The position numbers and the translations under genes were made by a program. From contig JALUWT010000111.1 of the NCBI GenBank assembly GCA_027019325.1, forward strand, positions 1 through 43,045: a DNA stretch of 43,045 nt. Reading direction: 5' to 3'. Numbering within the stretch: position 1 is the first letter of the stretch; each line of letters opens with the position of its first letter. The notes below the pieces were generated by a model, which was not told where the DNA came from, ran no database searches, and saw nothing but the letters and a program-made list of their open reading frames with translations. This document shows, piece by piece, positions 10,656 to 43,045 of the stretch. The stretch comes from Sulfurimonas sp. GTDB taxonomy: Bacteria > Campylobacterota > Campylobacteria > Campylobacterales > Sulfurimonadaceae.

Positions 10656-12251
10656 TTGAAACAAAGAGTATCAGCGCTTTTGCGTGAAAAACTTGGTCGT
10701 GAAGTTGTATTAGAAAAACCTCGAGACCGCTCTTTTGGGCATTTTGCTACTCCGATTGCTTTTTCTTTGGCAAAAGAGCTGAAGAAATCTCCTATGATTA
10801 TAGCAGATGAACTTGCTTCATCTTTTAGCGATTCAGATGAATTTTCAAGCGTTGAGGCTGTTAAGGGCTACCTTAATTTCCGTCTCAGTGAAGTATTTTT
10901 AACAGAGTATGCTTCATGGGCGCTTGAAAATCCGTCACAATTTGCAAAGCAAGAAAAAAATCAAAAGATACTTTTAGAATTTGTCAGTGCAAACCCTACA
11001 GGTCCACTGCATATTGGTCATGCAAGAGGTGCTGTTTATGGCGATACCCTCTACCGTTTAGCAAAGCATCTCGGTTATGACATTACTGCGGAATATTATA
11101 TTAATGATGCCGGAAATCAGATTGATCTGCTTGGACTTTCTATTCAACTCCATGGACGTGAAAATCTTTTGGATGAGACAGTTGAGTATCCTGAGTCGTA
11201 TTACCGTGGGGAGTATCTTGATGCGCTTTCACGAGATGCGATGGAGAAATTTGGTGCAGAGATATTTCATGATGAATCACGTCAGCGTGAGCTTGCAATG
11301 TGGGCAAAAGATGAAGTGATGCAAATCATTGCCAAAGATTTGGCAGATACGAACATCCATTTTGATACTTTTGTTTATGAATCAACGCTTTATGATGATT
11401 GGGACAGAGTCATGAAGAAGATGGGTGAGGGCATTTATGAAGATGACGGCAAAGTCTGGATAGCTTCCGAAGCAAAAGACGATGAGAAAGACAGAGTCGT
11501 CGTGCGTGAAGATGGTCGTCCTACTTATCTTGCCGGTGATATCGTCTACCATAATCAAAAATTTGAACGTGGATATGACCACTACATTAACATTTGGGGA
11601 GCTGACCATCATGGTTATATTCCTCGTGTAAAAGCAGCTGTTGAATATCTTGGATATGATTCAGACAAACTTGAAGTATTACTTTCTCAAATGGTAAGTC
11701 TTTTAAAAGACGGTGAACCATATAAAATGAGTAAACGCGCAGGTAATGTAATACTTATGAGTGATATAGTTGAAGAGATTGGCGCTGATGCATTGCGTTT
11801 TATTTTTGCAAGTAAAAAGAGCGATACTGCACTTGAATTTGATCTTGCAGAGTTTAAAAAGCAAGACAGTTCCAACCCGATTTTTTATATTCAATACGCT
11901 CATGCGAGAATTAAAACACTGCTTGGTAAAAGTGAGCTAAGTGAAGCAGAGATTTTAGCTGCAGAGCTTACAGGTTTAGACAAACAAGCTGACTCACTCC
12001 TTTTTGATACGCTTTTACTCCCTGAAGTGGTTGAAGATGCTTTTAATACGCGTCAGGTGCAAAAACTGACAGATTATCTCAAATCTCTTGCAGCATCTCT
12101 GCATAAGTTCTATTATGATGTGCGTATGATTGGCACAGAAGATGAAGCAAAACTACTAAAACTGATGCTCGTTGTAGCACTCAGCATCAAAACCGGATTT
12201 TCATTAATGGGTATCGAAGCAAAAGATAAAATGGTAAAAGAAGAGGAGTAA
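10656..12251 (+). CDS. argS: Arginyl-tRNA synthetase (TTG start)
   Basis: SANPTGPLHIGHARGAVYGD (HIGH) and KMSKRAGN (KMSK-type) motifs. Confidence 0.97.
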   Translation: MKQRVSALLREKLGREVVLEKPRDRSFGHFATPIAFSLAKELKKSPMIIADELASSFSDSDEFSSVEAVKGYLNFRLSEVFLTEYASWALENPSQFAKQEKNQKILLEFVSANPTGPLHIGHARGAVYGDTLYRLAKHLGYDITAEYYINDAGNQIDLLGLSIQLHGRENLLDETVEYPESYYRGEYLDALSRDAMEKFGAEIFHDESRQRELAMWAKDEVMQIIAKDLADTNIHFDTFVYESTLYDDWDRVMKKMGEGIYEDDGKVWIASEAKDDEKDRVVVREDGRPTYLAGDIVYHNQKFERGYDHYINIWGADHHGYIPRVKAAVEYLGYDSDKLEVLLSQMVSLLKDGEPYKMSKRAGNVILMSDIVEEIGADALRFIFASKKSDTALEFDLAEFKKQDSSNPIFYIQYAHARIKTLLGKSELSEAEILAAELTGLDKQADSLLFDTLLLPEVVEDAFNTRQVQKLTDYLKSLAASLHKFYYDVRMIGTEDEAKLLKLMLVVALSIKTGFSLMGIEAKDKMVKEEE

Positions 12252-12264
12252 AACTCTCTTCTTT

Positions 12265-12957
12265 CTATTTCAAAAGTTTTGAATCTTTTAAAACCGGATA
12301 CTCTTTTTTTATCTCCCCCGCATACTTCTTAGGAATTTGAATCAAAATCGGATTTTTCTTTTTATCTAACCACGTTACAATTTTTCGTAAATCACTCTCT
12401 TTCATAGAGGTACATCCGACTGTTGGGCTGTTGGGTGCCTTTTGAATGTGCATAAAGATGCAAGAGCCGCTCTGCGGCTTTGCGTGAGGATTGTGTGCGA
12501 CGACGATGCCAATTTTGTATTGATCGTCTTTACGGCGCATATGCTCAAAACTCTTTTCATCACCGTGTGCCTGAATGATTTGGTTGTAAAAAGGGGAACT
12601 GCTCTCATCGACGCAGATTGTCTCTTTTGCAGCATAGAGATAGGGAAGTTTTGTGTTTGTTTTGTGCGCATAACCAAAAGCATCTGTGAGTTTGAAAATT
12701 CCTGCGGGTGCTTTTTTGTCGCCTTCTTCTTTTAGTGGCTCATCAGCTGCGTGAGGAATCTTTTTTATGCCGATTCCCCAGCCCAATCCATTTTTCCCAA
12801 GATTCACGTCAATATCTTTACAGAGCACTTTTGACCCCTCATAACACTCCAATTTTGCGTGAGAACTGTTAAAATCATCTGCGACAACTAAAACGATTTG
12901 CTGGGATGCAAACAACAATGTGGAAAAACTTACTGTAATTAAGAAACTTTTTATCAT
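12265..12957 (-). CDS. L,D-transpeptidase family protein (YkuD), secreted
   Basis: Catalytic motif IQKAPNSPTVGCTSMKESDL and signal peptide MIKSFLITVSFSTLLFA; start placed at internal Met because the longer ORF overlaps the divergent gene. Confidence 0.85.
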   Translation of the reverse strand: MIKSFLITVSFSTLLFASQQIVLVVADDFNSSHAKLECYEGSKVLCKDIDVNLGKNGLGWGIGIKKIPHAADEPLKEEGDKKAPAGIFKLTDAFGYAHKTNTKLPYLYAAKETICVDESSSPFYNQIIQAHGDEKSFEHMRRKDDQYKIGIVVAHNPHAKPQSGSCIFMHIQKAPNSPTVGCTSMKESDLRKIVTWLDKKKNPILIQIPKKYAGEIKKEYPVLKDSKLLK

Positions 12958-13021
12958 AAAGTATGGTACTATTACTATTATATGACTGACCTTAGATAAT
13001 TGGGCAAAAAGGCAAAATATT

Positions 13022-15761: not shown

Positions 15762-17063
15762 TTACCTTCTTTTGCTTTTAAAATTGACATCAAAACTACG
15801 CTGAGAGTTTGCCTTGACTTTGAGCGTAAATGTAACTAAATTTCCCTTAGTATAAACATATTTGAGTTTTGAATCTATGTAAGAGCCACTTTTTTTGTTA
15901 AATGGAATCTTCAGTGTAATGGTTTTGTCTTCATTAGAGTTATTAGAAATTTTGTACTCTATGCGTACATCAAACTGTGTGTTAGTGTCCTTGCGTGAGA
16001 GCATTTTTTGTGTTACTTTGGTGTCAAAGTCTTTGCCGACTCTGAGTGTTACCGGAGTGTTTTTTGGCGTATTTGCGATGTTGTCTTCGCCTAAAAGCAG
16101 TTTTTCCTCTGCATCTTTTGCGTAGATACGAACAAGACCTGTTGGGAGTTCTCTTTGCAGATCTTTTAACTGTACTTCGCGTGTAACACCGCTTGAACGC
16201 TCACCCATAAGATAAAGAGGATTGTTCATGGTCGCGATGTAACTGTTTTGAATTGCCACATCACTTTGTTTGAAAAGTTTTACTCTTGTTTTTTCAAAGG
16301 CATTGAGATCCATTCTACGTGGCAGGGCGTAGTGATGGTATCCGGCTATAGATTTGTGTGCAATGTTCTCTTTATCAGAAGCGAGCATGCGACTTCTGTA
16401 GGCAACAGCTTGTACGTGATTGTAGGCTCTGTTTATATCTCCAGCAATGAGATTGACAGTGGCATTTTTAAAATCTTTTCCTGAGTTGTTGACAATGTCT
16501 ACCCATGCGGTAATATCTGCTTTATCTTTGTGCAAATTGAGAACATAGTCACTTGAAAAAGTGATATTGCGGGCAAGATAGCTGATATCGACATTTGTCT
16601 TAAGTGTTTTTGCACTTTTTATCTCAAATGCAAGAGTGTTATCTGCTTGCAAATTTTTTGGAAGATAAGGGAAAATCATCTCCGCTGTCTGCACAGTCTC
16701 TATTGTACCGGCACTGTTTTTGACAATGGCATGGTGACCACTCAGTGCTAAAAGTGTGACTTTGGAACCATGAGAAATCGCAACTTTTTTGCCTATGAAT
16801 TTTTTTGCCAAATCATGCTGGGTAAGGTTTTTACGTCTGTAAACCTGTGAATAGAGCGTAACAGCTTCCGGTAATTCAATATCTACGGAGTTGTTGATGA
16901 GTGTGTTTGGTATATCATCATATTCTAATTCTCTGTCTGTTTTTTTGATTTCAAATTCTTGAGACTCTTGAACGAGGGCAATATCTGAATTATAAATTGT
17001 AAGTGTTGTTGCGAAAATTGTCTGCGTGAGAACAAAGCTTGAAAGTAAAATGATTCTTTTCAT
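15762..17063 (-). CDS. DUF4139-type secreted protein
   Basis: Signal peptide MKRIILLSSFVLTQTIFA; TLTIYNSDIALVQESQEFEI and later segments resemble DUF4139; AAGGA RBS. Confidence 0.75.
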   Translation of the reverse strand: MKRIILLSSFVLTQTIFATTLTIYNSDIALVQESQEFEIKKTDRELEYDDIPNTLINNSVDIELPEAVTLYSQVYRRKNLTQHDLAKKFIGKKVAISHGSKVTLLALSGHHAIVKNSAGTIETVQTAEMIFPYLPKNLQADNTLAFEIKSAKTLKTNVDISYLARNITFSSDYVLNLHKDKADITAWVDIVNNSGKDFKNATVNLIAGDINRAYNHVQAVAYRSRMLASDKENIAHKSIAGYHHYALPRRMDLNAFEKTRVKLFKQSDVAIQNSYIATMNNPLYLMGERSSGVTREVQLKDLQRELPTGLVRIYAKDAEEKLLLGEDNIANTPKNTPVTLRVGKDFDTKVTQKMLSRKDTNTQFDVRIEYKISNNSNEDKTITLKIPFNKKSGSYIDSKLKYVYTKGNLVTFTLKVKANSQRSFDVNFKSKRR

Positions 17064-17123: not shown

Positions 17124-18251
17124 TTGATTACGACTCCTTTTGCTTATCTATTCATCATCGCGCTTAGTGTTACCTTTTTTCATCTTCTTGTCACACGAAC
17201 AAAGATACGCATCTTTGAATTTCTGCCTGCTGTGGTTATGATTTATGCTTTTATGATGCTGCTTGCCTCTTTAGGTACGTTCAGTTACAATGCAGCTATC
17301 AATAATGTCTACACACTGACAAAGACAAACCTTCTGCCTGCAATGCTCTTTTTAATGCTTCTGCAGATTGATTTCAGGCACTTTCTTAAACTCGGTAAAA
17401 AACTTCTTGTTGCGTACATCTTGGCAGTGAGTTCCATCGCTTTTGCATTTATAGCTGTCGCTGCACTGTTTCATTTCCCTCATGAAATGGCAGCTGCTTT
17501 TGGTGCATTGGCAGGCAGTTGGATGGGCGGAACGGCAAATATGGTGGCAGTGGGCTCTGCTCTTGGTGTGAATGAAGATGCCTTTGCCTATGCACTTGTC
17601 GTAGACAGTGTGAACTATACACTCTGGGTGATGCTGCTTCTTTTTCTCGTTCCATTTGCAAAATTTTTCAATCGTTTTACAAAAAGTGAAGCCAATCTTG
17701 CCTATCTGAGTGAAATAGGATGCGCCTGTGCAATGGGTGCAAAAAGATACTGGCTGCTCATCGTTTTAGCACTTTTTGCCTCTTTGGCTGCACAAATGCT
17801 GGCAAACCATTTTGTCATCCTCAACAAAACGACAAGCATTGTCATCATCGCCACGCTTTTAGGCGTACTTGGCTCGTTTACACGGCTGCGTGAGCTCAAC
17901 GGCTCCAGTGAAGTGGCAACGACAATGCTCTACATCCTCATTGCACTCATTGGTTCAAAAGCGGTGATTGCAAACTTTAGTGGTCTTGGTGTTTATGTTG
18001 TAGCAGGTTTTGTTATTTTACTTATTCACGCACTGTTGATGGTGCTTGGCGCCAAACTTTTTAAGCTTGACCTTTTTAGCATTGCTGTTGCATCATTGGC
18101 AAACATCGGCGGTGTGGCATCCGCGCCAATTTTAGCGGCAACCTACAACAAAAATCTTGTAAGTGTCGGTGTACTTATGGCCATTATGGGCTATTTGATT
18201 GGTACGTTCGGTGGACTTTTTGTCGGAACGCTCTTACTACGCCTCTCTTAA
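17124..18251 (+). CDS. DUF819-family membrane protein
   Basis: Polytopic; AAAFGALAGSWMGGTANMVAVGSALGV and ASLANIGGVASAPILAATYNKNLVSVGVLMAIMGYLIGTFGG. Confidence 0.85.
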   Translation: MITTPFAYLFIIALSVTFFHLLVTRTKIRIFEFLPAVVMIYAFMMLLASLGTFSYNAAINNVYTLTKTNLLPAMLFLMLLQIDFRHFLKLGKKLLVAYILAVSSIAFAFIAVAALFHFPHEMAAAFGALAGSWMGGTANMVAVGSALGVNEDAFAYALVVDSVNYTLWVMLLLFLVPFAKFFNRFTKSEANLAYLSEIGCACAMGAKRYWLLIVLALFASLAAQMLANHFVILNKTTSIVIIATLLGVLGSFTRLRELNGSSEVATTMLYILIALIGSKAVIANFSGLGVYVVAGFVILLIHALLMVLGAKLFKLDLFSIAVASLANIGGVASAPILAATYNKNLVSVGVLMAIMGYLIGTFGGLFVGTLLLRLS

Positions 18252-19493
18252 ATTCTCTTGTACGCAGTTGCGTCCGGAATCTTTGGCCCGATACATAGCA
18301 ATGTCTGCAGCTTTTATTAACGCTTCATAGGAGTTGTGCTTTTCATTGAGTTCGGCGACACCGATGCTTACTGTTATACTAAAGAGAGCCTGCGTATCAC
18401 TCTGAAATTTCAAAGCTGCGATTGTTTTGATTAGCCGTACGGCAAAATCATGCGCATGCGAAAGGGACGTTTCAGGTAAGACAATAACAAACTCTTCGCC
18501 TCCATATCTGCCTGAGTAGTCGATCTCACGCAGACTATTTTTTAAAAGAGCGGCAAGTTCTTTGATGACTCTGTCTCCCATCTGATGTCCATAGGTATCG
18601 TTGATTTGCTTAAAGTAATCAATGTCAAGCATGCAAACAGATAAGGGTGTATGATATCTCTGCGCTCTATGGATATCGCGCTTGAGCAACTCATCGAGTA
18701 TCCGTCTGTTGTAGAGAGTGGTTAGAGAATCATGGCGGGAAAGATATCGGAGCTTGAACTCCAGTTCTTTTCTGTCTGTGATGTTGCGTGAGAGTATCAT
18801 CACCGTCGGTTCTGCTTCGTTGTTGTGTTTTAAACTTGCAGAGAGCTCAAACCAGAGCTTGTCTTGGGGTGTCTGTATCTCTATCTGCTCTCCTGAAGAA
18901 CTACCTTCTTGGAGTGTGTGATTGATGGTATCCATTACTGTTTGTGCAGCAGCCAAAGGAAGTATTTCTGTCACACTGTTGCCTAAAAGCTGTTCTTTAT
19001 TTGCAGCGAGTTCTTGAGGATTGTGTGCCCACACATTGATATAGATTCCATCTCGGCTAAGTTCAAACATTAAATCAGGTATGGCTGTAAGTATGGCATC
19101 TTGTGCATGAATGGTCTCTTCAAGTTGTTGACGTGTCTCTTTGAGTTGTGTCGTATCTAATACAGAAACAAAACTTTTTCCCGACTCTTTAAAGTATGTA
19201 ACACTTGCAAGTACATGAAGATATCCATTTTTTGTTTTGAGCCTGATATCGTAATTTTGAGGGAGGTCTTTTGCACCTTGTATGCGTCTGAGATGGTTTT
19301 CTTGCAGTATATTGCAGTCATCTGCATCATAAATCCACTCTAAAAAGGGTGTGCCAACAAACTCATTCTCTTTTAGCTCTAAAAGTTGCAGTAATTTTTT
19401 GTTTGCCATACAAAGCGTTCCATCACGCTCTATGGCAGCAATCCCTATATTTATATTAGAAAAGAGCGTGTTATAATCAATTGACGTCAGCAT
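18237..19493 (-). CDS. PAS-PAS-GGDEF diguanylate cyclase
   Basis: Two PAS-like regions; DSLTTLYNRRILDELL, GRYGGEEFVIVLPET. Confidence 0.9.
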   Translation of the reverse strand: MLTSIDYNTLFSNINIGIAAIERDGTLCMANKKLLQLLELKENEFVGTPFLEWIYDADDCNILQENHLRRIQGAKDLPQNYDIRLKTKNGYLHVLASVTYFKESGKSFVSVLDTTQLKETRQQLEETIHAQDAILTAIPDLMFELSRDGIYINVWAHNPQELAANKEQLLGNSVTEILPLAAAQTVMDTINHTLQEGSSSGEQIEIQTPQDKLWFELSASLKHNNEAEPTVMILSRNITDRKELEFKLRYLSRHDSLTTLYNRRILDELLKRDIHRAQRYHTPLSVCMLDIDYFKQINDTYGHQMGDRVIKELAALLKNSLREIDYSGRYGGEEFVIVLPETSLSHAHDFAVRLIKTIAALKFQSDTQALFSITVSIGVAELNEKHNSYEALIKAADIAMYRAKDSGRNCVQENLREA

Positions 19494-19956: not shown

Positions 19957-20987
19957 AAATTGCTGTAATTACACTCACGCAAGAAAAAATTGCACTTAAA
20001 ACGCCTTTTATCACTGCCTTGCGTGAGGTACGGGATGTGGAGTTCATTCGCGTAAAAATCCTCTGTGATGATGGGAGTTTTACTTACGGAGAAGCACCGG
20101 CGACCAAAGCTGTTACGGGAGAGACATTAGAGAGTATCAGAGAAAATATTTTGGCCGTTAAAGAGCTGTTGATAGGCAAAGAGATAGCAGTCTCTCTAGA
20201 GGCATTACACCAGACAACTATAGGCTCAAGCGCAAAGGCGGCCTTGGATATGGCACTGCTCTTTTTACTTGCTAAGCAGAAAAAAAAGCCTTTGCAAGAA
20301 TTCTTTCATATTAAAGATACAACACCAATAAAGACAGATATCACCATTAGTTTAGGCAGTGCTGAGGTGATGTTTGAAGATGCAAAGCGTGCTCTGCGTG
20401 AGCAGAAGAACATTTTAAAAGTAAAGCTTGGCAGTGATATCGCTCACGCAGTTGAAGTATCGCAACTTCTCTCACGCAAACTGCCTCACGCAACGCTGCT
20501 CATTGATGCAAATCAGGCTTGGAATTTAGAAGAGAGTCTGTATTATCTGCGTGAGACGCAAAACTGTGCGATGGAGCTTATAGAACAGCCGGTGGCTGCT
20601 GCAGATTTAGAGAGTTTGAAAAAGATAAGTCAGGCAAGTAAAGTGCCAATTTTGGCAGATGAAGCAGTCTTTACGCTGCAAGATGTGAAAGATGTTGTGC
20701 AAAACAGCTGTGCAGATATGATAAATATTAAACTCATGAAGTGTGGCGGTCTTTCAAAAGCTGTAGAGATTTTAGAATATGCACGTAAAGAGAAGATTAC
20801 ATGTATGCTTGGGTCGATGTTAGAAGGGCCATACTCCATCAATGCAGCGATATATCTTGCTTTTGCTTACAGAGATGTGGTGCAATTTGTGGATTTGGAC
20901 TCGCCTCTGCTTTATAAAGAGATGCCTCACGAACTTGATTTTGTTTATGAGGCGAATGAAATCATTTTTAAAAATATCCCACTTTAA
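19953..20987 (+). CDS. Enolase-superfamily dipeptide (L-Ala-D/L-Glu) epimerase-like protein
   Basis: KVKLGSD, LLIDANQAW, ELIEQPV, PILADEA, INIKLMKCGG, LGSMLEG motifs. Confidence 0.85.
   Translation: MKIAVITLTQEKIALKTPFITALREVRDVEFIRVKILCDDGSFTYGEAPATKAVTGETLESIRENILAVKELLIGKEIAVSLEALHQTTIGSSAKAALDMALLFLLAKQKKKPLQEFFHIKDTTPIKTDITISLGSAEVMFEDAKRALREQKNILKVKLGSDIAHAVEVSQLLSRKLPHATLLIDANQAWNLEESLYYLRETQNCAMELIEQPVAAADLESLKKISQASKVPILADEAVFTLQDVKDVVQNSCADMINIKLMKCGGLSKAVEILEYARKEKITCMLGSMLEGPYSINAAIYLAFAYRDVVQFVDLDSPLLYKEMPHELDFVYEANEIIFKNIPL
20396..20555. repeat. Cluster of five GCGTGAG/CTCACGC words
   Basis: Positions 20396(+), 20443(-), 20471(-), 20485(-), 20549(+), all extending to the octamer TGCGTGAG/CTCACGCA; two more at 19974(-) and 20021(+). 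Confidence 0.8.
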
Positions 20988-23704: not shown

Positions 23705-26401
23705 ATGAAATGGTATCAAATGTCTTCAGATGATATTTTTAAGAATTTAGAGAGTGCTGAAGAGGGCCTCTCTAGCAGTGAAGCGCAAAAAAGAGTGGAA
23801 CAATACGGAGCAAATGTATTACGGGTACAAGAGGCTGTTTCCGCTTTTAAAATCTTTTTTATTCAGTTTAAAAATCCTCTCATCATCATTCTTCTCTTTG
23901 GTGTTTTTCTTTCGGCATACGGCGCTCATATGATTGATGCCATTGCCATTACGGTCATTATTTTAATCAATGTCATGATTGGTTTCCTCCAAGAGATAAA
24001 TATGCGTAAATCGATGGATGCCTTAAAAAATATGGTTGCACACATAGCTCAGGTTAAACGAGACGGTGAGTGGCGTGAAGTCCCTGTAGAAAGACTTGTT
24101 AAAGGGGATCTTGTAAAACTTCTTACAGGTAGTAAAGTGCAGGCAGATATGCGTGTTATCTCAGCTAATCAACTACTTATAGAAGAGGCAGCACTGACGG
24201 GTGAATCAGAGGCGATAGAAAAAATTACTGATGCCATACATGAGGATAATCTTGATATTGCCGACTGGAACAATATGGCATTTACCGGAACGCAGGTTCT
24301 TGCCGGTAATGGTGTGGGCGTTGTCTGCGAAACAGGAATGTCCACAGAGCTTGGCAAGATTGCCACAATGATGCACGCTACAAAAGAGGAACCGACACCG
24401 CTGCAGCAGCGTATTCACTCGCTTTCAAAAGTTCTCATCGGTGCAGCATTTATCATCGTTGCCATTGTCATTGGGCTTGGTATCGAGCAGGGGATGAGCT
24501 TTGCTGATATGGTCAACATTGGTATATCACTTACTGTTGCAGCTATTCCTGAGGGATTGCCTACTGTTGTGACGATTGTACTGACTTTAGGTGCAAAAGC
24601 GATGGCAAAGAACTCAGCACTTGTCAGAAAGTTGGCATCTGTTGAGACCTTGGGCTCGACGACAGTCATATGTTCTGATAAAACAGGAACGCTCACGCAG
24701 AACAAGATGCAGGTACTTTCCGCTTTTGTTGCTGGAAAATATTATGAAATATCTGGTTCAGGCTATGAGCCGGAGGGTCTCTTTAACGATGAGAATAGTG
24801 AAAATATAGAAGTATCTGATAATGAAGAGTTAGTGAAATTTTTACAAATATCTGCCATATGTAGTGATGCGCAGATAATTAAAGAGGGGGATACGCACTC
24901 TATTTTAGGAACACCGACAGAGGGTGCAGTAACAGTTGTCGCGGCAAAAGCTGGCATCAACAAAGAAGCAATGTCTCAAGAAGGTTTTGAAGTGATTCAT
25001 ACTTTTCCTTTTGACTCTGCTAGAAAAATGATGAGTGTTGTTATTAAAACACCGCAAGAGCAATACTTTGTCGTAGTAAAAGGCGCACCTGATGTTGTTG
25101 CCAAACGGAGTAAGTTTATCTATTTGCAGGGTGAATCAAAAACACTAGATGCCACAACAAACAAACACATCGACGAAGCCATTGAACGTTTTGCTTCACG
25201 TGCGCTACGTATACTTGCCATTGCTTTTAAACCTATAACAGCGCAACATTTAGATCTGACGCAAGAAGAGTATGAAAACGGTTTTACCTTTTTAGGTGTT
25301 CATGGCATCATAGATCCACCGCGTCCTGAAGTGATACCAGCGGTGAAAGAGTGCCATAGTGCAGGTATTCGAACGATTATGATAACAGGCGACCACGCAC
25401 AAACTGCAGAGGCCATAGCAAGAGAGATTGGTTTTATACAAAAAGGATATGAGCGGGTAGTTGTAGGGAGTGAACTTAACACTATGAGTGATGAGGTGCT
25501 GCAGGAAGTCGTGAAGGAGAGTGCCGTTTTTGCCAGAGTGATTCCTGAACATAAACTACGCATAGTCAATGCTCTCAAAGCCAATGGAGAGGTAACTGCT
25601 ATGACAGGGGACGGGGTAAATGATGCACCGGCACTGAGAACAGCCGACATAGGTGTGGCGATGGGAATTAGCGGAACAGATGTGGCAAAAGATTCAGCAG
25701 ATTTGATTTTACTCGATGACAATTTTACTAGCATTGTCAAAGCGGTACGTGAGGGACGCCGAATTTATGACAACATTAAAAAGTTCATCCGTCAGGACTT
25801 GACTGCCAATGTGAGTGAGGTGAGTGCTATTTTGTTTGCCTTTTTACTTATGGGAGACCATCCTTTAATGACCTTGGCACCGCTGATGATTTTATGGGTC
25901 AACCTTGTAAGTGATGGTATTCCCTCTCTGGCTCTAGGTGTTGAGAAAGGAGAACCCGGTCTTATGCGTAAAAAACCACGCTCATCTTCTGAAGATTTTT
26001 TCTCTGATTATCTCTCCTCACGTATCATTTTAAGAGGATTGATTTTAGGGAGTGTGACCTACTGGCTCTTTAGTTTTGCCCTCAGTAAAGGAGCAGATCT
26101 GCAATATGCACAGACTTTAGCCTTTATGACGCTTGTCTTTGGACAGCTTTTTCACATCTTTGATGCGCGTACATTCTCAACGCTCTATAGACGAAATCCA
26201 TTTGAAAACAGCTACCTGCTTTATGCGATTCTCATAGCAGCTGTTTTATCGCTTCTAATGGTCTACACTCCGATTGGGCATATAGCTTTGGGGACAGAAT
26301 CTTTAACAGCCAAACATATGATTATGGTCATTGCAATTGCAGCTCTGCCGACCTTGATAGTTTCAGGTTTAAAAGAGATATTTAAAATAAAATGGATTTA
26401 A
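23705..26401 (+). CDS. Cation-translocating P-type ATPase (Ca2+-ATPase-like)
   Basis: PEGLPTVVTIVL, CSDKTGTLTQNKM, MITGDHAQTAEAIA, TGDGVNDAPALRTADIGVAMG, LWVNLVSDGIPSLALG. Confidence 0.92.
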   Translation: MKWYQMSSDDIFKNLESAEEGLSSSEAQKRVEQYGANVLRVQEAVSAFKIFFIQFKNPLIIILLFGVFLSAYGAHMIDAIAITVIILINVMIGFLQEINMRKSMDALKNMVAHIAQVKRDGEWREVPVERLVKGDLVKLLTGSKVQADMRVISANQLLIEEAALTGESEAIEKITDAIHEDNLDIADWNNMAFTGTQVLAGNGVGVVCETGMSTELGKIATMMHATKEEPTPLQQRIHSLSKVLIGAAFIIVAIVIGLGIEQGMSFADMVNIGISLTVAAIPEGLPTVVTIVLTLGAKAMAKNSALVRKLASVETLGSTTVICSDKTGTLTQNKMQVLSAFVAGKYYEISGSGYEPEGLFNDENSENIEVSDNEELVKFLQISAICSDAQIIKEGDTHSILGTPTEGAVTVVAAKAGINKEAMSQEGFEVIHTFPFDSARKMMSVVIKTPQEQYFVVVKGAPDVVAKRSKFIYLQGESKTLDATTNKHIDEAIERFASRALRILAIAFKPITAQHLDLTQEEYENGFTFLGVHGIIDPPRPEVIPAVKECHSAGIRTIMITGDHAQTAEAIAREIGFIQKGYERVVVGSELNTMSDEVLQEVVKESAVFARVIPEHKLRIVNALKANGEVTAMTGDGVNDAPALRTADIGVAMGISGTDVAKDSADLILLDDNFTSIVKAVREGRRIYDNIKKFIRQDLTANVSEVSAILFAFLLMGDHPLMTLAPLMILWVNLVSDGIPSLALGVEKGEPGLMRKKPRSSSEDFFSDYLSSRIILRGLILGSVTYWLFSFALSKGADLQYAQTLAFMTLVFGQLFHIFDARTFSTLYRRNPFENSYLLYAILIAAVLSLLMVYTPIGHIALGTESLTAKHMIMVIAIAALPTLIVSGLKEIFKIKWI

Positions 26402-26474: not shown

Positions 26475-27719
26475 ATGAATTTAGAATCTTTAAAAAATCA
26501 GACTCTTTTGTTTCTTGGAAAGTCGCGTGCGTTTAGTGAAGCGGAGTTCTTTTCGCAGCTTGAGGTGCATACTGTTGCTTTGACAAAAGAGCTGCGTGAG
26601 GATGTTCACTTTGTCTTAGAAGGACGTATGCTGACACCTTATGAGCAGAACTTAAGTGATGAGCTTTATGCTATGCAGAAGTATCAGTTCTTAAAGATAG
26701 ATGATTTTGAAAAGGCATTGGCTGAGCAGATAGATGATGCTGTTTTACTGATGAGTTTGAAGCTTTCAAATGACAAAGTACGACTGAAAAGTTTTTTGCA
26801 CAACAGCTGCGTGAGTGATACGCTCTTTTTTAAACTCCTAAAAATGTACAAATGGCAGGGTGAGGATTTCTTTGAAAATGATGATAACCGTGATGTAAGT
26901 GCGGCACTCATTGGAAGATTTTATGAAAATATTGAGCGCAATCATAATGTGCAGTATGCTACAACCGGCATCATCCATCTCATTTCGCAGACAAAAAATC
27001 CCGAGTTGCTTGAAGCCATCAGTGAACTCGAAGCAGTGAATTTTCATCCAAAGATTAAAGTTCTTTTGGCACAGCACCCCTTTACACCGCAAAAAGTACT
27101 CAAAAAGTTAGTACAATCAAATGCACAAGAAATGCTTGAAGCGATGAGCAAAAATTCTGAATTAGACAAAGAGACAGCTTTCGTTCTGATAGAAAAAGAG
27201 GATGTTTTGGCGAAAAATATCGCTGAAAATATTGACTTGGATGCAGAGCTTTTTGAAAAACTTCTGCCTCACGCAGCGACTCTTGCTCTCAATGAGAGTC
27301 TGCGTGAGGAGATGCAAATAAAACTTTTTGATTTAGGCAGTGAAGAAGTTTTTTTCTCTTTAGCGCATAATGTGCAGTTGACTTCAGAGCTAATAGAAAA
27401 ACTTTTTGCACTCCACAACGACTCTTACACGCAAGCACTTTATAAAAATGCCAGCGTGAGCAGTGCGCTTTTAGAAGAGGCGTATGAAGATGAGAAAAAT
27501 CATCTCTCTTTGGCACAAAATACTGCTGCGCCGCAAAGTATTTTAGAAAAACTCTATGCAGGTGGTGATGCTGAGATATTGGGTGCACTTGCTTGTAATA
27601 CAAATACACCTGTAGATATTCTCTATCAGCTCCAACTCGACAGACGTTTTGAGCGAGCTGTTAAAACAAATGAAGCTTTTGGTAAATCGATACAAAGTCA
27701 AAATATAGGATGGTTATAA
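26475..27719 (+). CDS. Leucine-rich-variant (LRV)/HEAT-like repeat protein
   Basis: Repeated helical units such as LAQNTAAPQSILEKLYAGGD and LACNTNTPVDILYQLQLD; overlaps the following MoxR gene. Confidence 0.65.
   Translation: MNLESLKNQTLLFLGKSRAFSEAEFFSQLEVHTVALTKELREDVHFVLEGRMLTPYEQNLSDELYAMQKYQFLKIDDFEKALAEQIDDAVLLMSLKLSNDKVRLKSFLHNSCVSDTLFFKLLKMYKWQGEDFFENDDNRDVSAALIGRFYENIERNHNVQYATTGIIHLISQTKNPELLEAISELEAVNFHPKIKVLLAQHPFTPQKVLKKLVQSNAQEMLEAMSKNSELDKETAFVLIEKEDVLAKNIAENIDLDAELFEKLLPHAATLALNESLREEMQIKLFDLGSEEVFFSLAHNVQLTSELIEKLFALHNDSYTQALYKNASVSSALLEEAYEDEKNHLSLAQNTAAPQSILEKLYAGGDAEILGALACNTNTPVDILYQLQLDRRFERAVKTNEAFGKSIQSQNIGWL
27267..27309. repeat. Inverted pair of CCTCACGCAG/CTGCGTGAGG forming an intragenic hairpin
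   Basis: CCTCACGCAG(27267-27276) and CTGCGTGAGG(27300-27309), with inner ACTCT(27279-27283)/AGAGT(27295-27299). Confidence 0.8.
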
Positions 27720-28714
27720 TGCAGGCAAAAAATCTTAAAAAGAGTCTTGAATCCTTGGTCACACAAAAGGTACCGACTTTTCTCTGGGGTGCTCCGGGAA
27801 TTGGAAAATCTTCGATAGTCAAGCAGATAGCAGAGGAAAAAGAGCTTGGTTTTATAGATCTGCGTTTGGCTTTGATGGATCCAACTGACCTTAAAGGCAT
27901 TCCTTTTTACGATAAAGAGAGCCATACGGCACTCTGGGCAGCACCTGCATTTTTGCCGCGTGAGGGAGAGGGCATACTCTTTTTAGATGAGCTGAACTCT
28001 GCCGCTCCAGCGGTGCAGTCTTCTGCCTATCAGCTTATTTTGGACAGACGGGTAGGTGAGTATGTTCTTCCAGAGGGTTGGGCAATAGTTGCTGCAGGAA
28101 ATCGTGAAGGAGACAGAGGAGTGACTTATAAAATGCCTGCACCTTTAGCCAACAGATTTGTGCATTTTGAACTGGAAGTGAGTGTAGATGACTGGCGTGA
28201 GTGGGCATACAAAAATGTACTGGATAGCCACATAATTGCATACATCTCTTACAAAAATGAGCACCTTTTTACTTTTGATGCCAAATCTCAGCAGAAGAGT
28301 TTTGCAACACCGAGAAGCTGGGCGTATGTGCATAGTATCTTACAAAGTGGGGTCGAGGCAAATCTGCTGCTTGATGTCATAAGTGGCGCAGTCGGGCGTG
28401 AGGTGGCTGTAAGTTTTTTAAGTTTTTTACGTGTTGCGGACAGATTGCCGGATATTGATGGGATACTTCTTGGAGAGCTGCATGAACAGAGTGAAGGAGT
28501 GGATGTACTCTATGCGCTTGGGAGCGGACTTGTCAGCAAATATCTGCAAAATCCGAATGAGAAATCCTTGGAAAACCTGCTTGACTATACCTTGGAGATG
28601 CAGCCGGAGTTTGCTGTGATGATAGTGCAGGATCTGCAAAAAAATGGTGTGACAATGGAGCAGTCAGAGAACTTTAAAGCGTGGGTGCAAAAGTTCGCAT
28701 ATCTCTTGGCGTAA
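27719..28714 (+). CDS. MoxR-type AAA+ ATPase
   Basis: FLWGAPGIGKSSIVKQIA, GILFLDELNSAAPAVQSSAYQLILDRRVGEYVLPEGW, VAAGNREGDRGVTYKMPAPLANRF. Confidence 0.9.
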   Translation: MQAKNLKKSLESLVTQKVPTFLWGAPGIGKSSIVKQIAEEKELGFIDLRLALMDPTDLKGIPFYDKESHTALWAAPAFLPREGEGILFLDELNSAAPAVQSSAYQLILDRRVGEYVLPEGWAIVAAGNREGDRGVTYKMPAPLANRFVHFELEVSVDDWREWAYKNVLDSHIIAYISYKNEHLFTFDAKSQQKSFATPRSWAYVHSILQSGVEANLLLDVISGAVGREVAVSFLSFLRVADRLPDIDGILLGELHEQSEGVDVLYALGSGLVSKYLQNPNEKSLENLLDYTLEMQPEFAVMIVQDLQKNGVTMEQSENFKAWVQKFAYLLA

Positions 28715-28717: not shown

Positions 28718-29824
28718 ATGAAAGCAAAAGAAAAAATCTCTCAGGCAAAAGCGAAACTTTTAGTCGATTACCCCTATTTTGGAACTTTGGCCTCAAAACT
28801 GGAACTTTTGATCAATGATGATCTGGAGAGTTTTAAGAGTGACGGCAAAAAGTTGGAGTATCGAGAGGAGTATCTGGCTGACCTGGAGCTTTGCGAAATA
28901 GAGTTTCTCTTGGCAAACGGTGCGATGCATCAGGTACTAGCACATGATAATCGTAAGAACAACAGAAGCGGCTGGCTCTGGCAGATGGCAACAGATATTG
29001 CCATTAATGATATGCTTTTACAAAATGGTATGAATATGCCACAGGGTGCGCAATATAGAAAACGTTTCAGTGGAATGTATGCTGAAGAGATATATGCCGA
29101 GCTTAAAGATGACATCCTGCGTGAAGATGAAGATCTTGAGTATGAAGCGGACAATGCGGATGATGTAGAGCAAAAAGAGAATGAAAAGCAGGAACAAGAG
29201 CAACTGCTCCAAGAACAGCTTTTAGCCGAAGAAGCCATCTCTCTTTTAGAATCCCAAATGAAAATGGGTGAAGCTCCAGAGTCGATGGAGCGTTTTTTTG
29301 ACATTGAAGTTTTTGGTAAAGTGGACTGGCGAAGTGAACTGCGTGAGGCACTTGAACAGTACTTCAGAGATGATTATGTGATGATGCCGCCTTCAAAAAA
29401 ACTGCTTTATCAGGGAATATACCTGCCTTCAAGCAGTTCACAAACCTTTCGCTTGGTTATTGCCATTGACTCTTCGGATTCTGTGGATGAAGCGCTATTA
29501 AATGAATTTTTATCTGAAGTCACTTTTTTGATGGAGCAGGTGCAAAACTATATCATCGATATGATTGTTTGTGATGATAGAATCCACTCTCACACAAGTT
29601 TTTACAGTGGTGAAGCTTTGGATGTAAAGATTATTGGCAGTGCTGGAACAGATTTTCGTCCTGTTTTTGAGTTTATAGAAAAAGAGTTGGATGATGTGAA
29701 ACTACTGCTCTATTTTACAGACCTGGAAGGGATTTTCCCAAGAGAAGCACCTGCTTATGAGGTAAAATGGGTAACGCCTAAAGAGGAAGAAATTCCTTTT
29801 GGGAAAATTATTTTATTGGATTAG
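28718..29824 (+). CDS. VWA-like protein with DUF2201-type N-terminus
   Basis: MIDAS-like AIDSSDSV, GTDFRPVF, YFTDLEG; N-terminal MHQVLAHDNR...WLWQMATDIAINDMLL. Confidence 0.85.
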   Translation: MKAKEKISQAKAKLLVDYPYFGTLASKLELLINDDLESFKSDGKKLEYREEYLADLELCEIEFLLANGAMHQVLAHDNRKNNRSGWLWQMATDIAINDMLLQNGMNMPQGAQYRKRFSGMYAEEIYAELKDDILREDEDLEYEADNADDVEQKENEKQEQEQLLQEQLLAEEAISLLESQMKMGEAPESMERFFDIEVFGKVDWRSELREALEQYFRDDYVMMPPSKKLLYQGIYLPSSSSQTFRLVIAIDSSDSVDEALLNEFLSEVTFLMEQVQNYIIDMIVCDDRIHSHTSFYSGEALDVKIIGSAGTDFRPVFEFIEKELDDVKLLLYFTDLEGIFPREAPAYEVKWVTPKEEEIPFGKIILLD

Positions 29825-31165: not shown

Positions 31166-32431
31166 ATGAATTATATGCATGTTACTTTAGACAAATTAAA
31201 CAATCATCAAAATGTTTTTTTAACCGGTGGAGCAGGGGTTGGAAAGACTACAATTACACGAGAGATTATTGCAGAGTATGAAGCAGAAGCGAAAAAAGTT
31301 GCCAAACTTGCCTCCACTGGAATGGCTGCGACACTTATCGGTGGGCAAACACTGCACAGTTTTTTAGATCTTGGTATCGCTTCTGACATGCAGGAGTTGC
31401 AACAAAACGGTAAATTTGAGATAAAAAAGAAGATTAAAAAACTCATCGGTGCGATGGATCTCATCGTCATTGATGAGGTTTCTATGGTGAGTGATGCACT
31501 CTTTGAGATGATAGAGCTTCGTCTCACGCAGGGTGGATTTTCCGGCTCCCTTCTGCTCGTAGGTGATTTTTTGCAGCTGCCGCCTGTTGTTCGCGGTTAT
31601 GGTGAGGTAAAATATGCTTTTGAGTCCGCTTCATGGCAAAATTTTAACTTTGAGACTGTGGAGCTCACGCATGTTTACAGAACCGATGACAGCGCCTTTA
31701 TAGAGCTTCTGCATGCCGTTCGTTTTGGTCAGATTGATGAAAGTGTCCACAACCGGCTCAATGCATTTATAAAACCGCTGCCAAATGATTTAAGCCAATT
31801 TAGCTTTTTGTTTGGAAAAAATCTCTCTGCTTCGCGTCATAACAAAAAAGAGCTTGAACACATTGAAGGGGAACTTTTTACAAAAGAAGCACAGATAATT
31901 AAGCATCAAAAAACTACAAGCGACAAAGAGGTAGAACGATTTATGGATGATGCCAGAATAGATAAAAATCTGGAACTTAAAATCGGTGCGCCTGTTCTCT
32001 TCTCACGCAATGCCTGGAACTATTTTAACGGGGAGCGGGGTGTTGTTGTCAATGTCGATGCGAGCTATGTGTATGTAGAAAAAAGTGATGGAAAAGTCGT
32101 TAAACTAGAGAGTGTTGCACAGAGTAAAAGTCTCTGGAAGGAAAAAACACTCAAAGGCAAGAAAGAGATGGTGGAAGAGAATCTTTTTAGTGTCTACCAG
32201 TACCCGATAAAACTCGCGTTTGCCATTACCATCCACAAGTCACAAGGCATGAGCATCGAAGATCTCATCATTGACACTAACGAAATTTTTGCTCCTTCAC
32301 AGTTTTATGTGGCACTCTCACGGGCATCTAATCCAAAACGACTCACACTCATCGCTCCAAGAAAACAGTGGTATAAGCTTGCCTTTGTCAATGAAAAGGC
32401 GATGCAGTTTGTTAAAGAGGGAAGATGCTGA
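31166..32431 (+). CDS. PIF1-like/RecD-like helicase
   Basis: VFLTGGAGVGKTTITREI, LIVIDEVSMVSDALFEMIE, LLLVGDFLQLPPV, AFAITIHKSQGMSIEDLIID, FYVALSRAS. Confidence 0.88.
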   Translation: MNYMHVTLDKLNNHQNVFLTGGAGVGKTTITREIIAEYEAEAKKVAKLASTGMAATLIGGQTLHSFLDLGIASDMQELQQNGKFEIKKKIKKLIGAMDLIVIDEVSMVSDALFEMIELRLTQGGFSGSLLLVGDFLQLPPVVRGYGEVKYAFESASWQNFNFETVELTHVYRTDDSAFIELLHAVRFGQIDESVHNRLNAFIKPLPNDLSQFSFLFGKNLSASRHNKKELEHIEGELFTKEAQIIKHQKTTSDKEVERFMDDARIDKNLELKIGAPVLFSRNAWNYFNGERGVVVNVDASYVYVEKSDGKVVKLESVAQSKSLWKEKTLKGKKEMVEENLFSVYQYPIKLAFAITIHKSQGMSIEDLIIDTNEIFAPSQFYVALSRASNPKRLTLIAPRKQWYKLAFVNEKAMQFVKEGRC

Positions 32432-36823: not shown

Positions 36824-36843
36824 TTGTATTATTTTTAGTGTGC

Positions 36844-38068: not shown

Positions 38069-38110
38069 AAGGGCATGATGAAATGTAACAAAGTATGCAT
38101 TTTTTCTATT

Positions 38111-38147: not shown

Positions 38148-38181
38148 GTATAGTTACCTTAATAAAAATCAGGAGAAGATA

Positions 38182-38466: not shown

Positions 38467-38478
38467 TCTCGTACAATT

Positions 38479-38507
38479 AAAGTACCTTCTGGGTACTTTA
38501 TTTTTTG
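38479..38507 (+). terminator. Rho-independent terminator after ferredoxin
   Basis: AAAGTACC-ttctg-GGTACTTT stem followed by ATTTTTT. Confidence 0.8.
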
Positions 38508-38579
38508 CAAAAATTACACTTACGCTTTTTAAAAATCACAAATTTTTACTTTTTAAACTAAAACATACTTTTTTTTAGA

Positions 38580-38585
38580 TATAAT
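38580..38585 (+). promoter_or_regulatory. Putative -10 box for ndk
   Basis: TATAAT preceded by a T tract, 35 nt upstream of ATG. Confidence 0.5.
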
Positions 38586-38619
38586 GCCACTCTAATTTTA
38601 TATTTTCAGAGGAGATTTG

Positions 38620-39033
38620 ATGGAACGTACACTATCCATAATCAAGCCAGATGCAGTTGCAAAAGGTGTTATAGGCAAAATTTTAGATCGTTTTGAAAGC
38701 AATGGTCTTAAGATTGCAGCTACAAGAAAGATTCAACTTTCACGTGGTGATGCAGAAGCATTTTATGCAGTTCATGCAGAAAGACCTTTTTTCAACGATC
38801 TTGTTGATTTTATGATCAGCGGTCCTGTTGTAGTTTCAGTTCTTGAAGGTGAAAATGCAATGCAAAAGAACCGTGATTTAATGGGGGCAACAAACCCTAA
38901 AGAGGCAGAAGCCGGTACAATCCGTGCAGATTTCGCTGAAAATATAGATGCAAATGCAGTTCATGGAAGCGATTCCGTTGAAAATGCAGCAGTTGAAATT
39001 GCATTCTTTTTCTCAGAGAGAGAAATTTCTTAA
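38620..39033 (+). CDS. ndk: Nucleoside diphosphate kinase
   Basis: [21 protein letters not shown], active-site [20 protein letters not shown]. Confidence 0.98.
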
Positions 39034-39042
39034 GTAATCTCC

Positions 39043-39402
39043 ATGAAGGTGATGCTTAGAAAAGTAACAAAGACACCCTTAGATTTCGAGCTGAAATCTG
39101 ATGAAATAACTTTTAAAGGTTATTTGGAGTATTATAAGGGCAAATTAATTTTGCTCAAAGCAAAGCTTGCAGGAACGCTTCTCAAGCCTTGCGATATTTG
39201 TGCAGAAGAATTTAAACTCGAGCTTGATGAAAATATAGAATTTTTCATCTCTGACGGTTTATATGAAGATGATGGCAGCCTCGAATTAGATGTTGTTGAA
39301 TCTTTGAATGGTAATGCAGATATTGATGAGTTGTTAAACTCTGAGATAGAACTTATCAAAAGTGATTACCACGCATGCGGTAATTGCAAAAAAATAAATT
39401 AA
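39043..39402 (+). CDS. DUF177 (YceD-like) protein
   Basis: Position immediately before rpmF-plsX-fabH, CDICAEEFKLELDENIEFFI. Confidence 0.8.
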   Translation: MKVMLRKVTKTPLDFELKSDEITFKGYLEYYKGKLILLKAKLAGTLLKPCDICAEEFKLELDENIEFFISDGLYEDDGSLELDVVESLNGNADIDELLNSEIELIKSDYHACGNCKKIN

Positions 39403-39419
39403 ATTAAAGGAAAATTATT

Positions 39420-39569
39420 ATGGCAGTACCTAAGAGAAGAGTATCTCACTCTCGTTCAGCAAAACGTAGAACACACTATAAAATTTCTTTAGCGCGTCCA
39501 GTTAAAGATAAAGATGGAACATACAGATTACCACACCACATTAACCCAACTACTGGTGAGTATAAATAA
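39420..39569 (+). CDS. rpmF: 50S ribosomal protein L32
   Basis: Absent from ORF track (49 aa); translates as [49 protein letters not shown]. Confidence 0.97.
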
Positions 39570-39573
39570 TTAA

Positions 39574-40572
39574 ATGGTAAAAATTGCAATCGATGCAATG
39601 GGTGGGGACTTTGGTCCCGAACCAATTGTTAAGGGAACACTTCAAGCACTTAAGAAAAAATCATTTACACCAGTCTTAGTAGGAAAGAAATCAGAAATTT
39701 TACCTCTGTTACCAAAACGTTATAGAGATAAGATTTTAATTATTGAAGCGGACGATGTTATTGCAATGGGTGATGCAGCAACTGATGCTGTAAAGCGCAA
39801 AGAGAGCACTATTTATAAAGCAGTAGAACTTGTAAAAAACGGTGAAGCTGATGGTGTGGTAAGTGCAGGGCACAGTGGTGCTACAATGACACTTGCAACA
39901 CTAAGAATAGGTCGCCTTTCAGGTGTTTCTCGTCCGGCACTTGTAACACTTATGCCAACCAAGACGGGACGCCGTTCCGTTGTTTTAGATGTTGGTGCAA
40001 ATGTTGACTCAAAACCGGAGCACTTAGCAGAATTTGCTATTATGGGTGGATGTTATGCAGAAGATGTTTTAGGCATCGAAGAGCCTTCTATCGGACTTCT
40101 TGCAAATGGGGAAGAAGATTCCAAAGGCAATGAAGTGACAAAAGCAGCTTTTAAACTTCTACAGGGCTATAAAGGTTTTAAAGGGAATGTTGAAGGTGGA
40201 GACATCTTTAATGGAAGCTGTGATGTCATCACGTGTGACGGCTTTATCGGAAATCTTGTTCTTAAAACAAGTGAAGGCGTCGCTTCTACTATCTCTATAC
40301 TTATCAAAGATTACATCAAAAAATCACCTATTCGTATTACTGGAGCACTTTTAATGCGAAGAGTATTTAAACTGCTCAAAAAAGAGATAGATTACGCTGA
40401 AGTAGGCGGTGCACCGTTGATCGGTATCAAAGGATGCGCTATTGTTTCACATGGTAAGAGTAATGCAAAAGCAATCGAAAATGCTATTTATCAGGCTATC
40501 TCCTATGTAGATACCGGTGTAAATGAGCATATTATTGCAAGACTTGCAGAGCTAAAAGATAAGGAAGTTTAA
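39574..40572 (+). CDS. plsX: Phosphate acyltransferase PlsX
   Basis: [54 protein letters not shown]. Confidence 0.97.
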
Positions 40573-40573
40573 T

Positions 40574-41578
40574 ATGGCATATGCTGCTTTTCGTTCTATT
40601 GGTGCGTACGTTCCAGAGAAAATACTGACAAATGAAGATCTGGCAAAGATGGTTGATACCTCTGATGAATGGATAACGAAACGTACAGGTATCAAAGAGC
40701 GTCATATTGCAGCAAAAGATGAGTTTACATCTGATATGGGTCTCAAAGCTGCTACAAAAGCCTTAGAGCGTAGTGGGGTTGAGAAAGATAAGATTGATAT
40801 GCTTATTTGTGCAACTATCTCACCCGATTATTTCTGTATGCCTTCAACAGCAACTATTATTGCAAACAAACTTGGCATCAAAGGGGCAACTGCTTTTGAT
40901 GTAACTGCAGCTTGTACCGGTTTTATCTATTCACTTTCTATTGCAAAGGCTTTCATTGAATCGGGAATGAAAAAGAATGTACTTATTGTAGGTTCTGAAA
41001 AGCTTTCTGCTATTACAGATTACACTGATCGTGGTACATGTATCTTGTTTGGTGACGGTGCGGGTTCTGCGGTTATCTCTGCAACTGACAAAAAAGAGGA
41101 AGCCATTATTGATATTCATACCGGAGCAGATGGTGAATATGCAGATCTTTTAATGACTCCAAATGGTGGAACAGGCTCTGCTCATGATTCTTTAGAGGCA
41201 GAATCAGGAAGTTGCTTTATGCAAATGAAGGGTAATGAGACTTTTAAAGTTGCAGTACGCACACTTACAAATGATGTCAAAGAAATCTTGACTGAAAACA
41301 ACATTAAAAGTGAAGATATAAAGCATTTTATTCCTCATCAGGCAAATTTGAGAATTATTAAAGCTGTTGGTGATGCTCTTAAAATGAGAGAAGACCAAGT
41401 AGTCATTACAGTTCAAAAATATGGAAATACTTCTGGCGCTTCTATTCCTATGGCAATCAATGATCTTTATGAAGCGGGCAACTTAGAAGTAGGTGAGATT
41501 ATGCTTCTTGATGCTTTTGGTGGTGGTCTTACATGGGGTTCTGCTTTAGTTCCTTTTTCTCCGATCAGCAAGCTCTGA
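40574..41578 (+). CDS. fabH: 3-oxoacyl-ACP synthase III
   Basis: [54 protein letters not shown]. Confidence 0.98.
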
Positions 41579-41983
41579 TTCTCTTCTTTCTGTCTGTAGA
41601 CTTGCAAAGTTCTTTGCAAGTTTTTCATGCAGACGTTTATAAAACTCTTTTTCATCAGGCAAATTTAACTTGGCGTCTCTGAGTTTCTCTCCCCACATTG
41701 GATTTGGAAAATAACTGTCATTCTCAAAGCGTGCCATGACATGAATGTGCACACGAGGTAGCATATTGGCAAAAGAGGCCATATTGATTTTTTTAGGCTT
41801 ATAATACTCTCGCATCTCTTCTTCAATAATGTAGTAAACATCCCAAAATTTGTTTCGCAAATCTTTTGGCATATCGGTAAGTTCTTTGTAGGGGGCTTTT
41901 GTGAAAATCTTGAGCCAAGGGATTTCGCTCTCTTCTTTTTCTACTGAAATAGCAGGGTCATCATATATAATTGTGTGTTGCAT
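41546..41983 (-). CDS. HIT-family protein
   Basis: [29 protein letters not shown]; HxHx-type motif; convergent overlap with fabH. Confidence 0.75.
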
Positions 41984-42031
41984 AATTAAACCTTTCAAGT
42001 AATTAGGTTTAATTATAGCAAAATTTAACTT

Positions 42032-43045
42032 TTAGTCTCTATGTCTGTTTGACGAGCTTCTGTTTCCTCTGTATCCACCACCGCTACGGTTTCTGTCACG
42101 ATTTCCACTACCGCCGCCACCTGAACGATTTTTGTTTCCACGGTATCCACCACGGCTTCTTCCACCACGACCATGAGAATCGTTACGTTTTCCTGCACGC
42201 TCTAAAATTGCTGTAAGTTTATCAGCAGGAATTCCGATGCTACTTGGTCCTTTGATATCTTGTTTGTCAAGAATCATTGAGATGAGTTTGAACATAATAG
42301 TCTCTTCATCAATGTCCTCTTTGAGTTTATCAAGAACTTTATGCGCTTCATCATAAATTTTTTGATTTTCAATATTTTTTACGATGTTATCAACAGTAGT
42401 CTCACGCAGGTCAGTTTTACTAGGAACAAAAGCATGCTCCATAGAAGTACCGACTTTTTTCTTGATACGTTGTAACTCTTTGAACTCTAAAGGAGTAAGG
42501 AGTGTAATCGCTTTTCCTTTTGTTCCGGCACGTCCTGTACGACCAATACGGTGAACATAAGATTCTGGGTCAAACGGAATATGGTAGTTAAATACATGTG
42601 AGATGTTGTTAACATGGATTCCACGTGCAGCGACATCTGTTGCAACGAGAACTTTTATAGAATCGTTTTTAAACCCTTTTATAACAGTCTCACGTTGGCG
42701 TTGCTCCATATCTCCATGAAGACCATTTGCTAAATAACCAGCATTGCTAAGAACATTTGAGAGTCTATCTACTTCAGATTTTGTACGGCAAAATACAATT
42801 GCTTTTTTAGTCCCTTCCGAATCCATAAGACGAATAACAGCATCATCACGCTCATGCTCATCAATTACATAGTAGAGTTGTTCGATGTCTGCATTTGTTG
42901 TTTCACCTTTAGTGATAGAGATAAACTCAGGATCTTTCAAAATTCTTGCAGCAAGCGTTTTAATCGGTTGTGGCATAGTTGCTGAGAAAAGGAGAGTTTG
43001 ACGGTTTGTTGGAAGATATGAAAATATTTCATTAATATCATCTAA
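42032..43045 (-). CDS. DEAD-box RNA helicase, C-terminal part (truncated by window edge)
   Basis: Frame continues upstream of the listed Met through SATMPQPIK; helicase C motifs (VLVATDVAARGIHV, YVHRIGRTGRAG), RGG-like C-terminal tail. Confidence 0.93.
   Translation of the reverse strand, partial: LDDINEIFSYLPTNRQTLLFSATMPQPIKTLAARILKDPEFISITKGETTNADIEQLYYVIDEHERDDAVIRLMDSEGTKKAIVFCRTKSEVDRLSNVLSNAGYLANGLHGDMEQRQRETVIKGFKNDSIKVLVATDVAARGIHVNNISHVFNYHIPFDPESYVHRIGRTGRAGTKGKAITLLTPLEFKELQRIKKKVGTSMEHAFVPSKTDLRETTVDNIVKNIENQKIYDEAHKVLDKLKEDIDEETIMFKLISMILDKQDIKGPSSIGIPADKLTAILERAGKRNDSHGRGGRSRGGYRGNKNRSGGGGSGNRDRNRSGGGYRGNRSSSNRHRD

Follow-up and report, generated by a model that had tools for sequence, protein, structure and literature searches.

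The window analysed here, a stretch of 43,045 nucleotides from the Sulfurimonas sp. assembly GCA_027019325.1 (contig JALUWT010000111.1, positions 1 to 43,045), carries many copies of a short word, TGCGTGAG, which reads CTCACGCA when it lies on the minus strand. Its host belongs to a sulfur-oxidising genus of the Campylobacterota, and the closest counterparts of the window's metK neighbourhood are found mostly in Sulfurimonas records. The original prediction, made from the letters of the window, had proposed the word as a candidate uptake, Chi or protein-binding motif. The count recovered 19 GCGTGAG and 11 CTCACGC, and 25 of these 30 heptamers extend to the octamer; both totals and every start that had been listed proved correct. 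The GC content is 38.3% rather than the estimated 37% or so, and an order-2 Markov model raises the expected numbers from roughly 2 heptamers and fewer than 1 octamer to 3.0 and 1.2, leaving the over-representation intact. GCGTGAG ranks first among all 7-mers in the window and TGCGTGAG among all 8-mers, and the highest-ranked 9-mer is CTGCGTGAG (15 copies, 0.24 expected). The sites are given below, where "intact" means that TGCGTGAG or CTCACGCA is kept at the aligned position in the named sister genome, and where B and D denote words of other Sulfurimonas genomes (dialects) described further on.

12481..12488, plus strand: TGCGTGAG, exact match; intact in G071 and G012
12748..12755, plus strand: TGCGTGAG, exact match; intact in G071, G012 and G068
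12856..12863, plus strand: TGCGTGAG, exact match; intact in G012
15992..15999, plus strand: TGCGTGAG, intact in G071 and G012; dialect B form TGCGTTTG there in G013 and G119
17023..17030, plus strand: TGCGTGAG, exact match; intact in G071 and G012
17887..17894, plus strand: TGCGTGAG, intact in G071 and G012; TGCGTTTT form in two D-dialect genomes
18525..18532, minus strand: CTCACGCA, exact match
18785..18792, plus strand: TGCGTGAG, exact match
19974..19981, minus strand: CTCACGCA, exact match; intact in G071 and G012
20020..20027, plus strand: TGCGTGAG, exact match; intact in G071 and G012
20395..20402, plus strand: TGCGTGAG, exact match; intact in G071
20443..20450, minus strand: CTCACGCA, exact match
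20471..20478, minus strand: CTCACGCA, exact match
20485..20492, minus strand: CTCACGCA, exact match
20548..20555, plus strand: TGCGTGAG, exact match
24692..24699, minus strand: CTCACGCA, in a P-type ATPase gene
26593..26600, plus strand: TGCGTGAG, exact match
26808..26815, plus strand: TGCGTGAG, exact match
27268..27275, minus strand: CTCACGCA, exact match
27301..27308, plus strand: TGCGTGAG, exact match
29340..29347, plus strand: TGCGTGAG, intact in G012; dialect B form TGCGTTTA there in G013 and G119
31523..31530, minus strand: CTCACGCA, in a RecD-like helicase gene
31664..31671, minus strand: CTCACGCA, in a RecD-like helicase gene
32002..32009, minus strand: CTCACGCA, exact match; intact in G012
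42401..42408, minus strand: CTCACGCA, exact match; intact in G071 and G012
11285..11291, plus strand: GCGTGAG, heptamer only, in argS
27454..27460, plus strand: GCGTGAG, heptamer only, exact match
27958..27964, plus strand: GCGTGAG, heptamer only, exact match
28195..28201, plus strand: GCGTGAG, heptamer only, exact match
28396..28402, plus strand: GCGTGAG, heptamer only, exact match
1..11284, no strand: word-free stretch (rpsB, tsf and others); in G071 and G012 the orthologous stretch likewise lacks the word

The copies span 11285-42407 as predicted, but within the window they cluster at 11.3-32.0 kb, and the first 11.3 kb hold none. Positions 32011-42400 contain 0 copies, yet 32011-43045 has 4 projected copies in each of G071 and G012. 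The DNA of both word-poor stretches, 1-11284 and 32011-42400, is largely common to relatives.

The strong genome-wide enrichment for which the original prediction had called was found. The 2.035 Mb assembly holds 767 copies of TGCGTGAG (394 + 373) and 25 of the reversed word, which served as the control in the genome counts of each word, and a 355-kb sample of the same genome has 167 copies against 9.1 expected. Counts are thus far from the Markov expectation, and the word is not confined to one reading frame, the two outcomes that had been named as refuting. This genome (G000) is a fragmented metagenome-assembled genome (MAG) of 218 contigs with a contamination estimate of 7.7%. A complete relative, G071 (two contigs, 100% completeness, 0% contamination), carries 962 copies in all, with 401 against 17.3 expected in a sample of 800 kb, which shows the same pattern as in the fragmented MAG. 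The leading 7-, 8- and 9-mers of the 355-kb sample are all pieces of YTGCGTGAG, and the consensus is C or T, then TGCGTGAG, then any base but T (YTGCGTGAGV), with a sharp core and flanks at background level. Because near-variants of TGCGTGAG are at most mildly enriched, the enrichment is specific to the sequence; a longer dispersed repeat as its source was rejected, the flanks being random.

Nearly all copies lie within genes. In the 355-kb sample, open reading frames (ORFs) contain 163 of the 167, with 76 sense and 87 antisense, and five of the six frames are used; the sixth would make a stop. The several frames and both orientations reported for the window therefore hold for the larger sample. 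In the G071 sample, 375 of 401 copies fall in ORFs (163 on the same strand as the gene, 212 on the opposite one), and no clear gene-end bias was seen. The commonest frame is CTG-CGT-GAG, encoding Leu-Arg-Glu (LRE; 64 of 163 copies). Carriers spell 70-72% of their LRE tripeptides with TGCGTGAG, where 4% is expected, and for LTQ, AHA, PHA and SHA the share is at least one half (expected 2-6% across tripeptides). Within these five tripeptides the word exceeds the codon-usage expectation 12-24-fold, and LRE is 4-5 times commoner in carriers than in G010, G073 and G060 together. Codons and peptides are therefore driven by TGCGTGAG, not the reverse, and the word is strong enough to dictate the choice of amino acids.

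Conservation between genomes agrees with a functional word. Over 234 kb in common at 78% DNA identity, 76 of 122 words (62%) are intact between the window's genome and G071, compared with 424 of 2723 8-mers of the same composition (16%). Identity is 81-94% inside the core and about 77% in the flanks, the step being confined to eight bases. Together with the forced choice of codons and amino acids, this supports the functional role that had been proposed. Against six genomes of other dialects (G013, G119, G120, G010, G060 and G073), whose DNA identity of 71-75% is slightly below the G000-G071 level, 0 of 198 aligned sites in the window's genome or G071 are intact; two further B-dialect genomes (G139 and G015) add 14 aligned sites, 2 of them intact. 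B forms were seen at the word's positions 15992 and 29340, but over all aligned sites they are no more frequent than in non-carriers.

The genus is divided among several such words. Across 135 Sulfurimonas genomes, with cut-offs of 100 copies and a five-fold excess over the reversed control, TGCGTGAG (dialect A) passes in 7 genomes with 621-962 copies; one further genome reaches 99, and all others stay close to control. Discovery of k-mers in relatives yielded dialect B, CTGCGTTT (29 genomes, up to 2331 copies), dialect C, GCATGTGGA (17 genomes, up to 1412 copies, control 4), and dialect D, TACATGTAA (23 genomes, up to 1099 copies; the word is near-palindromic, and every TTACATGTAA is counted on both strands). 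One or other of these four nearly exclusive words occurs in 75 of the 135 genomes. A single genome passes for two words where 15 overlaps are expected, and 0 of 100,000 random draws were as low, although the relatedness of the genomes keeps this from being a strict probability. When the 30 nearest genomes are placed on an ArgS tree, 3 changes account for the labels A, B and D, compared with 11 for shuffled labels. TGCGT is common to A and B, and CATGT to C and D; our impression is that all four words have a central GT. In 399 genomes drawn evenly across the order, no comparable abundance of TGCGTGAG was found outside Sulfurimonas, the highest value there being about 4 times control.

Other words were noticed in the same survey. 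A GGCATGTGGAA-type word of the C family is present in L067 (Sulfurimonas CG01) and in 17 Sulfurimonas genomes. The palindrome TTACATGTAA is iterated hundreds of times in G060, G010, G073, G114, G118 and others lacking the other three words; most copies are intragenic, as are 53 of 64 copies of TACATGTA. A Campylobacterales MAG (L044) over-represents CTTCATGAA, with 10 copies in 21 kb. In several Helicobacter (named genomes behind L051, L055, L056, L058, L059, L060, L062 and L064), there is a very large excess of AGATTCTA, which belongs to a near-palindromic TAGAWTCTA family with GAWTC inside it: H. bilis has 4858 copies and H. cinaedi 3667, whereas the reversed word occurs about 200 times; this was not seen in Helicobacter sp. 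NHP21005. Our literature search found no paper joining uptake sequences with Sulfurimonas and none on such words for Campylobacterota.

The complete G071 chromosome, whose GC skew switches near 0.98 Mb, allowed replication polarity to be assessed. In its sample, the leading strand carries 233 copies and the lagging strand 168 (58% leading). Because trinucleotide composition alone predicts a leading share of 65%, the G071 sample has no polarity beyond composition of the kind seen for Chi or for KOPS (FtsK-orienting polar sequences). In the window's genome the orientation relative to the G-rich strand is 84/83, and no strong switch at ori or dif, as for KOPS/FtsK guides, was found in G071. Four low-GC pieces of 20 kb in G071 hold 4 words, where about 16 are predicted from the genome rate after correction for composition. 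Two of them have zero copies: the first encodes a TraG/TraD-like protein, a restriction-modification system and an integrase, as in a conjugative island, and the second carries polysaccharide synthesis genes. The uptake sequences of Neisseria have been described as having this same core-rich, island-poor and non-polar pattern (PMC2734928, PMC3630211). The G071 sample also contains about 35 copies of a GC-rich CGCCGCCGTCAGGGTC-like repeat, probably a local repeat array.

Machinery for DNA uptake was found in these genomes. comEC is present in 56 of 60 relatives, and in the window's genome an operon encodes T2SSF, an MshE-type T2SSE, an AAA ATPase, a secretin and a PilO-like protein. Close to comEC are three pilin-like genes, and two more were found elsewhere. 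The set of T2SSF, T2SSE, AAA ATPase and secretin genes, and presumably their order, resembles the Campylobacter jejuni cts set. The ctsF-E-X-P-D set is required for transformation in C. jejuni (PMC8308473). In an A-dialect MAG, G012, a comEC homologue (G012:C74:7242-7985) has an in-frame TGA, which an assembly error or a decaying gene could explain.

Taken together, YTGCGTGAGV is likely a DNA uptake (self-recognition) word of a Sulfurimonas subclade and one of several dialects within the genus. A candidate receptor, which may be a minor pilin, would bind the word in double-stranded DNA, whichever strand carries it, as part of a type II/IV-pilus-like (cts-like) competence machine; word-bearing DNA would then be drawn through the secretin, pass ComEC as a single strand and recombine. 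Uptake would be the selective step. Because word-bearing alleles would be taken up preferentially, recombination would keep restoring the word in common core genes, over codon and even amino-acid preference, and unshared islands would remain word-free. On a wider scale, it is probable, if somewhat less assured, that DNA self-recognition words evolved in Sulfurimonas, and perhaps in further Campylobacterota including Helicobacter, independently of Neisseriaceae and Pasteurellaceae, with at least four words switched within the genus. Several observations weigh against an uptake word. comEC and the T2SSE pilus ATPase occur in all dialects and in word-less genomes, as far as sampled, and are therefore compatible with uptake without being proof of it, and no report of competence in Sulfurimonas was found in the literature. 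None of the four words occurs in 60 of the 135 genomes, word D comes close to a palindrome, which known uptake sequences do not, B sites seldom coincide with A sites, and the copies are not intergenic terminator hairpins as in Neisseria, with 25 of 401 lying outside ORFs in the G071 sample, with few close inverted pairs.

Among the three options first offered, uptake is nonetheless favoured because the word has no extra polarity, occurs on both strands and in all permitted frames, is absent from islands and belongs to a set of exclusive dialects. A lineage-specific Chi site, at which AddAB or RecBCD would pause during recombinational repair, might be suspected from a G-rich word that is short, non-palindromic and over-represented as Chi sites are, from its 58% leading-strand excess and from the RecD-like helicase gene in the window. 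We regard it as quite improbable, since composition alone predicts a higher leading share, the word's own genome has no bias towards the G-rich strand (84/83), and congeners replace the word wholly, one replacement being so nearly palindromic that it cannot be polar. Somewhat less improbable, but still unlikely, is that another bound protein is involved, the word being the target of a nucleoid or modification protein (an orphan or type II/III-like methylase, HIP1-like) that serves chromosome organisation or methylation, whether or not linked to uptake. C. jejuni offers a precedent, its uptake depending on the methylated motif RAATTY and on CtsM (PMC10046745). Dialect D and the TAGAWTCTA-type word of Helicobacter are near-palindromic, which also fits a methylase. 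Against this, restriction or modification targets are not usually enriched 20-fold as here, and the word, which shows neither polarity nor a macrodomain pattern and does not occur in islands, lies within genes at a cost to protein sequence. That the word should arise by chance, from preferred codons or peptides or from a family of dispersed repeats, has practically nothing in its favour beyond the predominance of the LRE frame (64 of 163 copies); five frames, both strands, random flanks and a 12-24-fold excess over codon usage speak against it, and the frame, strand and codon-usage counts refute a codon or peptide bias, as the original prediction had argued.

To our knowledge, uptake words have so far come mainly from two families, the relatives of Neisseria and of Haemophilus. 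Four nearly exclusive words and apparently word-free relatives form a natural series for studying the origin of such words, their rate of change, switching, receptor co-evolution and effect on gene flow, a series made testable by the complete A-dialect genome. If the uptake reading is true, uptake specificity would be a barrier to gene flow within a genus of chemosynthetic bacteria. TGCGTGAG may also serve as a marker by which foreign DNA, or contigs wrongly binned into these MAGs, can be recognised.

Among known systems, the DNA uptake sequences (DUS) of Neisseriaceae form dialects with a shared core (PMC3630211) and are absent from acquired genes (PMC2734928). The Sulfurimonas words are like them in being short (8-10-mers here, 10-12-mers there), in numbering hundreds to thousands per genome, in that each clade has its own dialect built around a common core (TGCGT of A and B here, CTG there), and in being depleted in acquired DNA and without replication polarity (PMC3630211). 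They differ in phylum, in their unrelated sequence, in the several unrelated words within one genus and in not forming terminator hairpins; the neisserial receptor is ComP, whereas here there are candidate pilins only. The uptake signal sequences of Pasteurellaceae (PMC2346458, PMC12616744) similarly have a 9-10-mer core, are mostly intragenic in both orientations and show a slight antisense excess (in G071, 212 opposite and 163 same), but the Sulfurimonas word lacks AT-rich flank extensions and a clear gene-end bias, and both lineage and word are different. Chi sites of RecBCD/AddAB are also short, non-palindromic and over-represented, whereas TGCGTGAG has no polarity beyond composition and gives way to other words elsewhere in the genus. 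HIP1 (highly iterated palindrome 1) of cyanobacteria is a highly iterated, mostly genic, palindromic octamer; the words share its iteration within genes, and dialect D its palindromic form, unlike the non-palindromic TGCGTGAG. Within the same phylum, the RAATTY/CtsM system of C. jejuni (PMC10046745) combines, as is proposed here, motif-based self-recognition at uptake with a cts pilus and secretin machine, but it relies on a common methylated hexamer, where Sulfurimonas has an enriched word.

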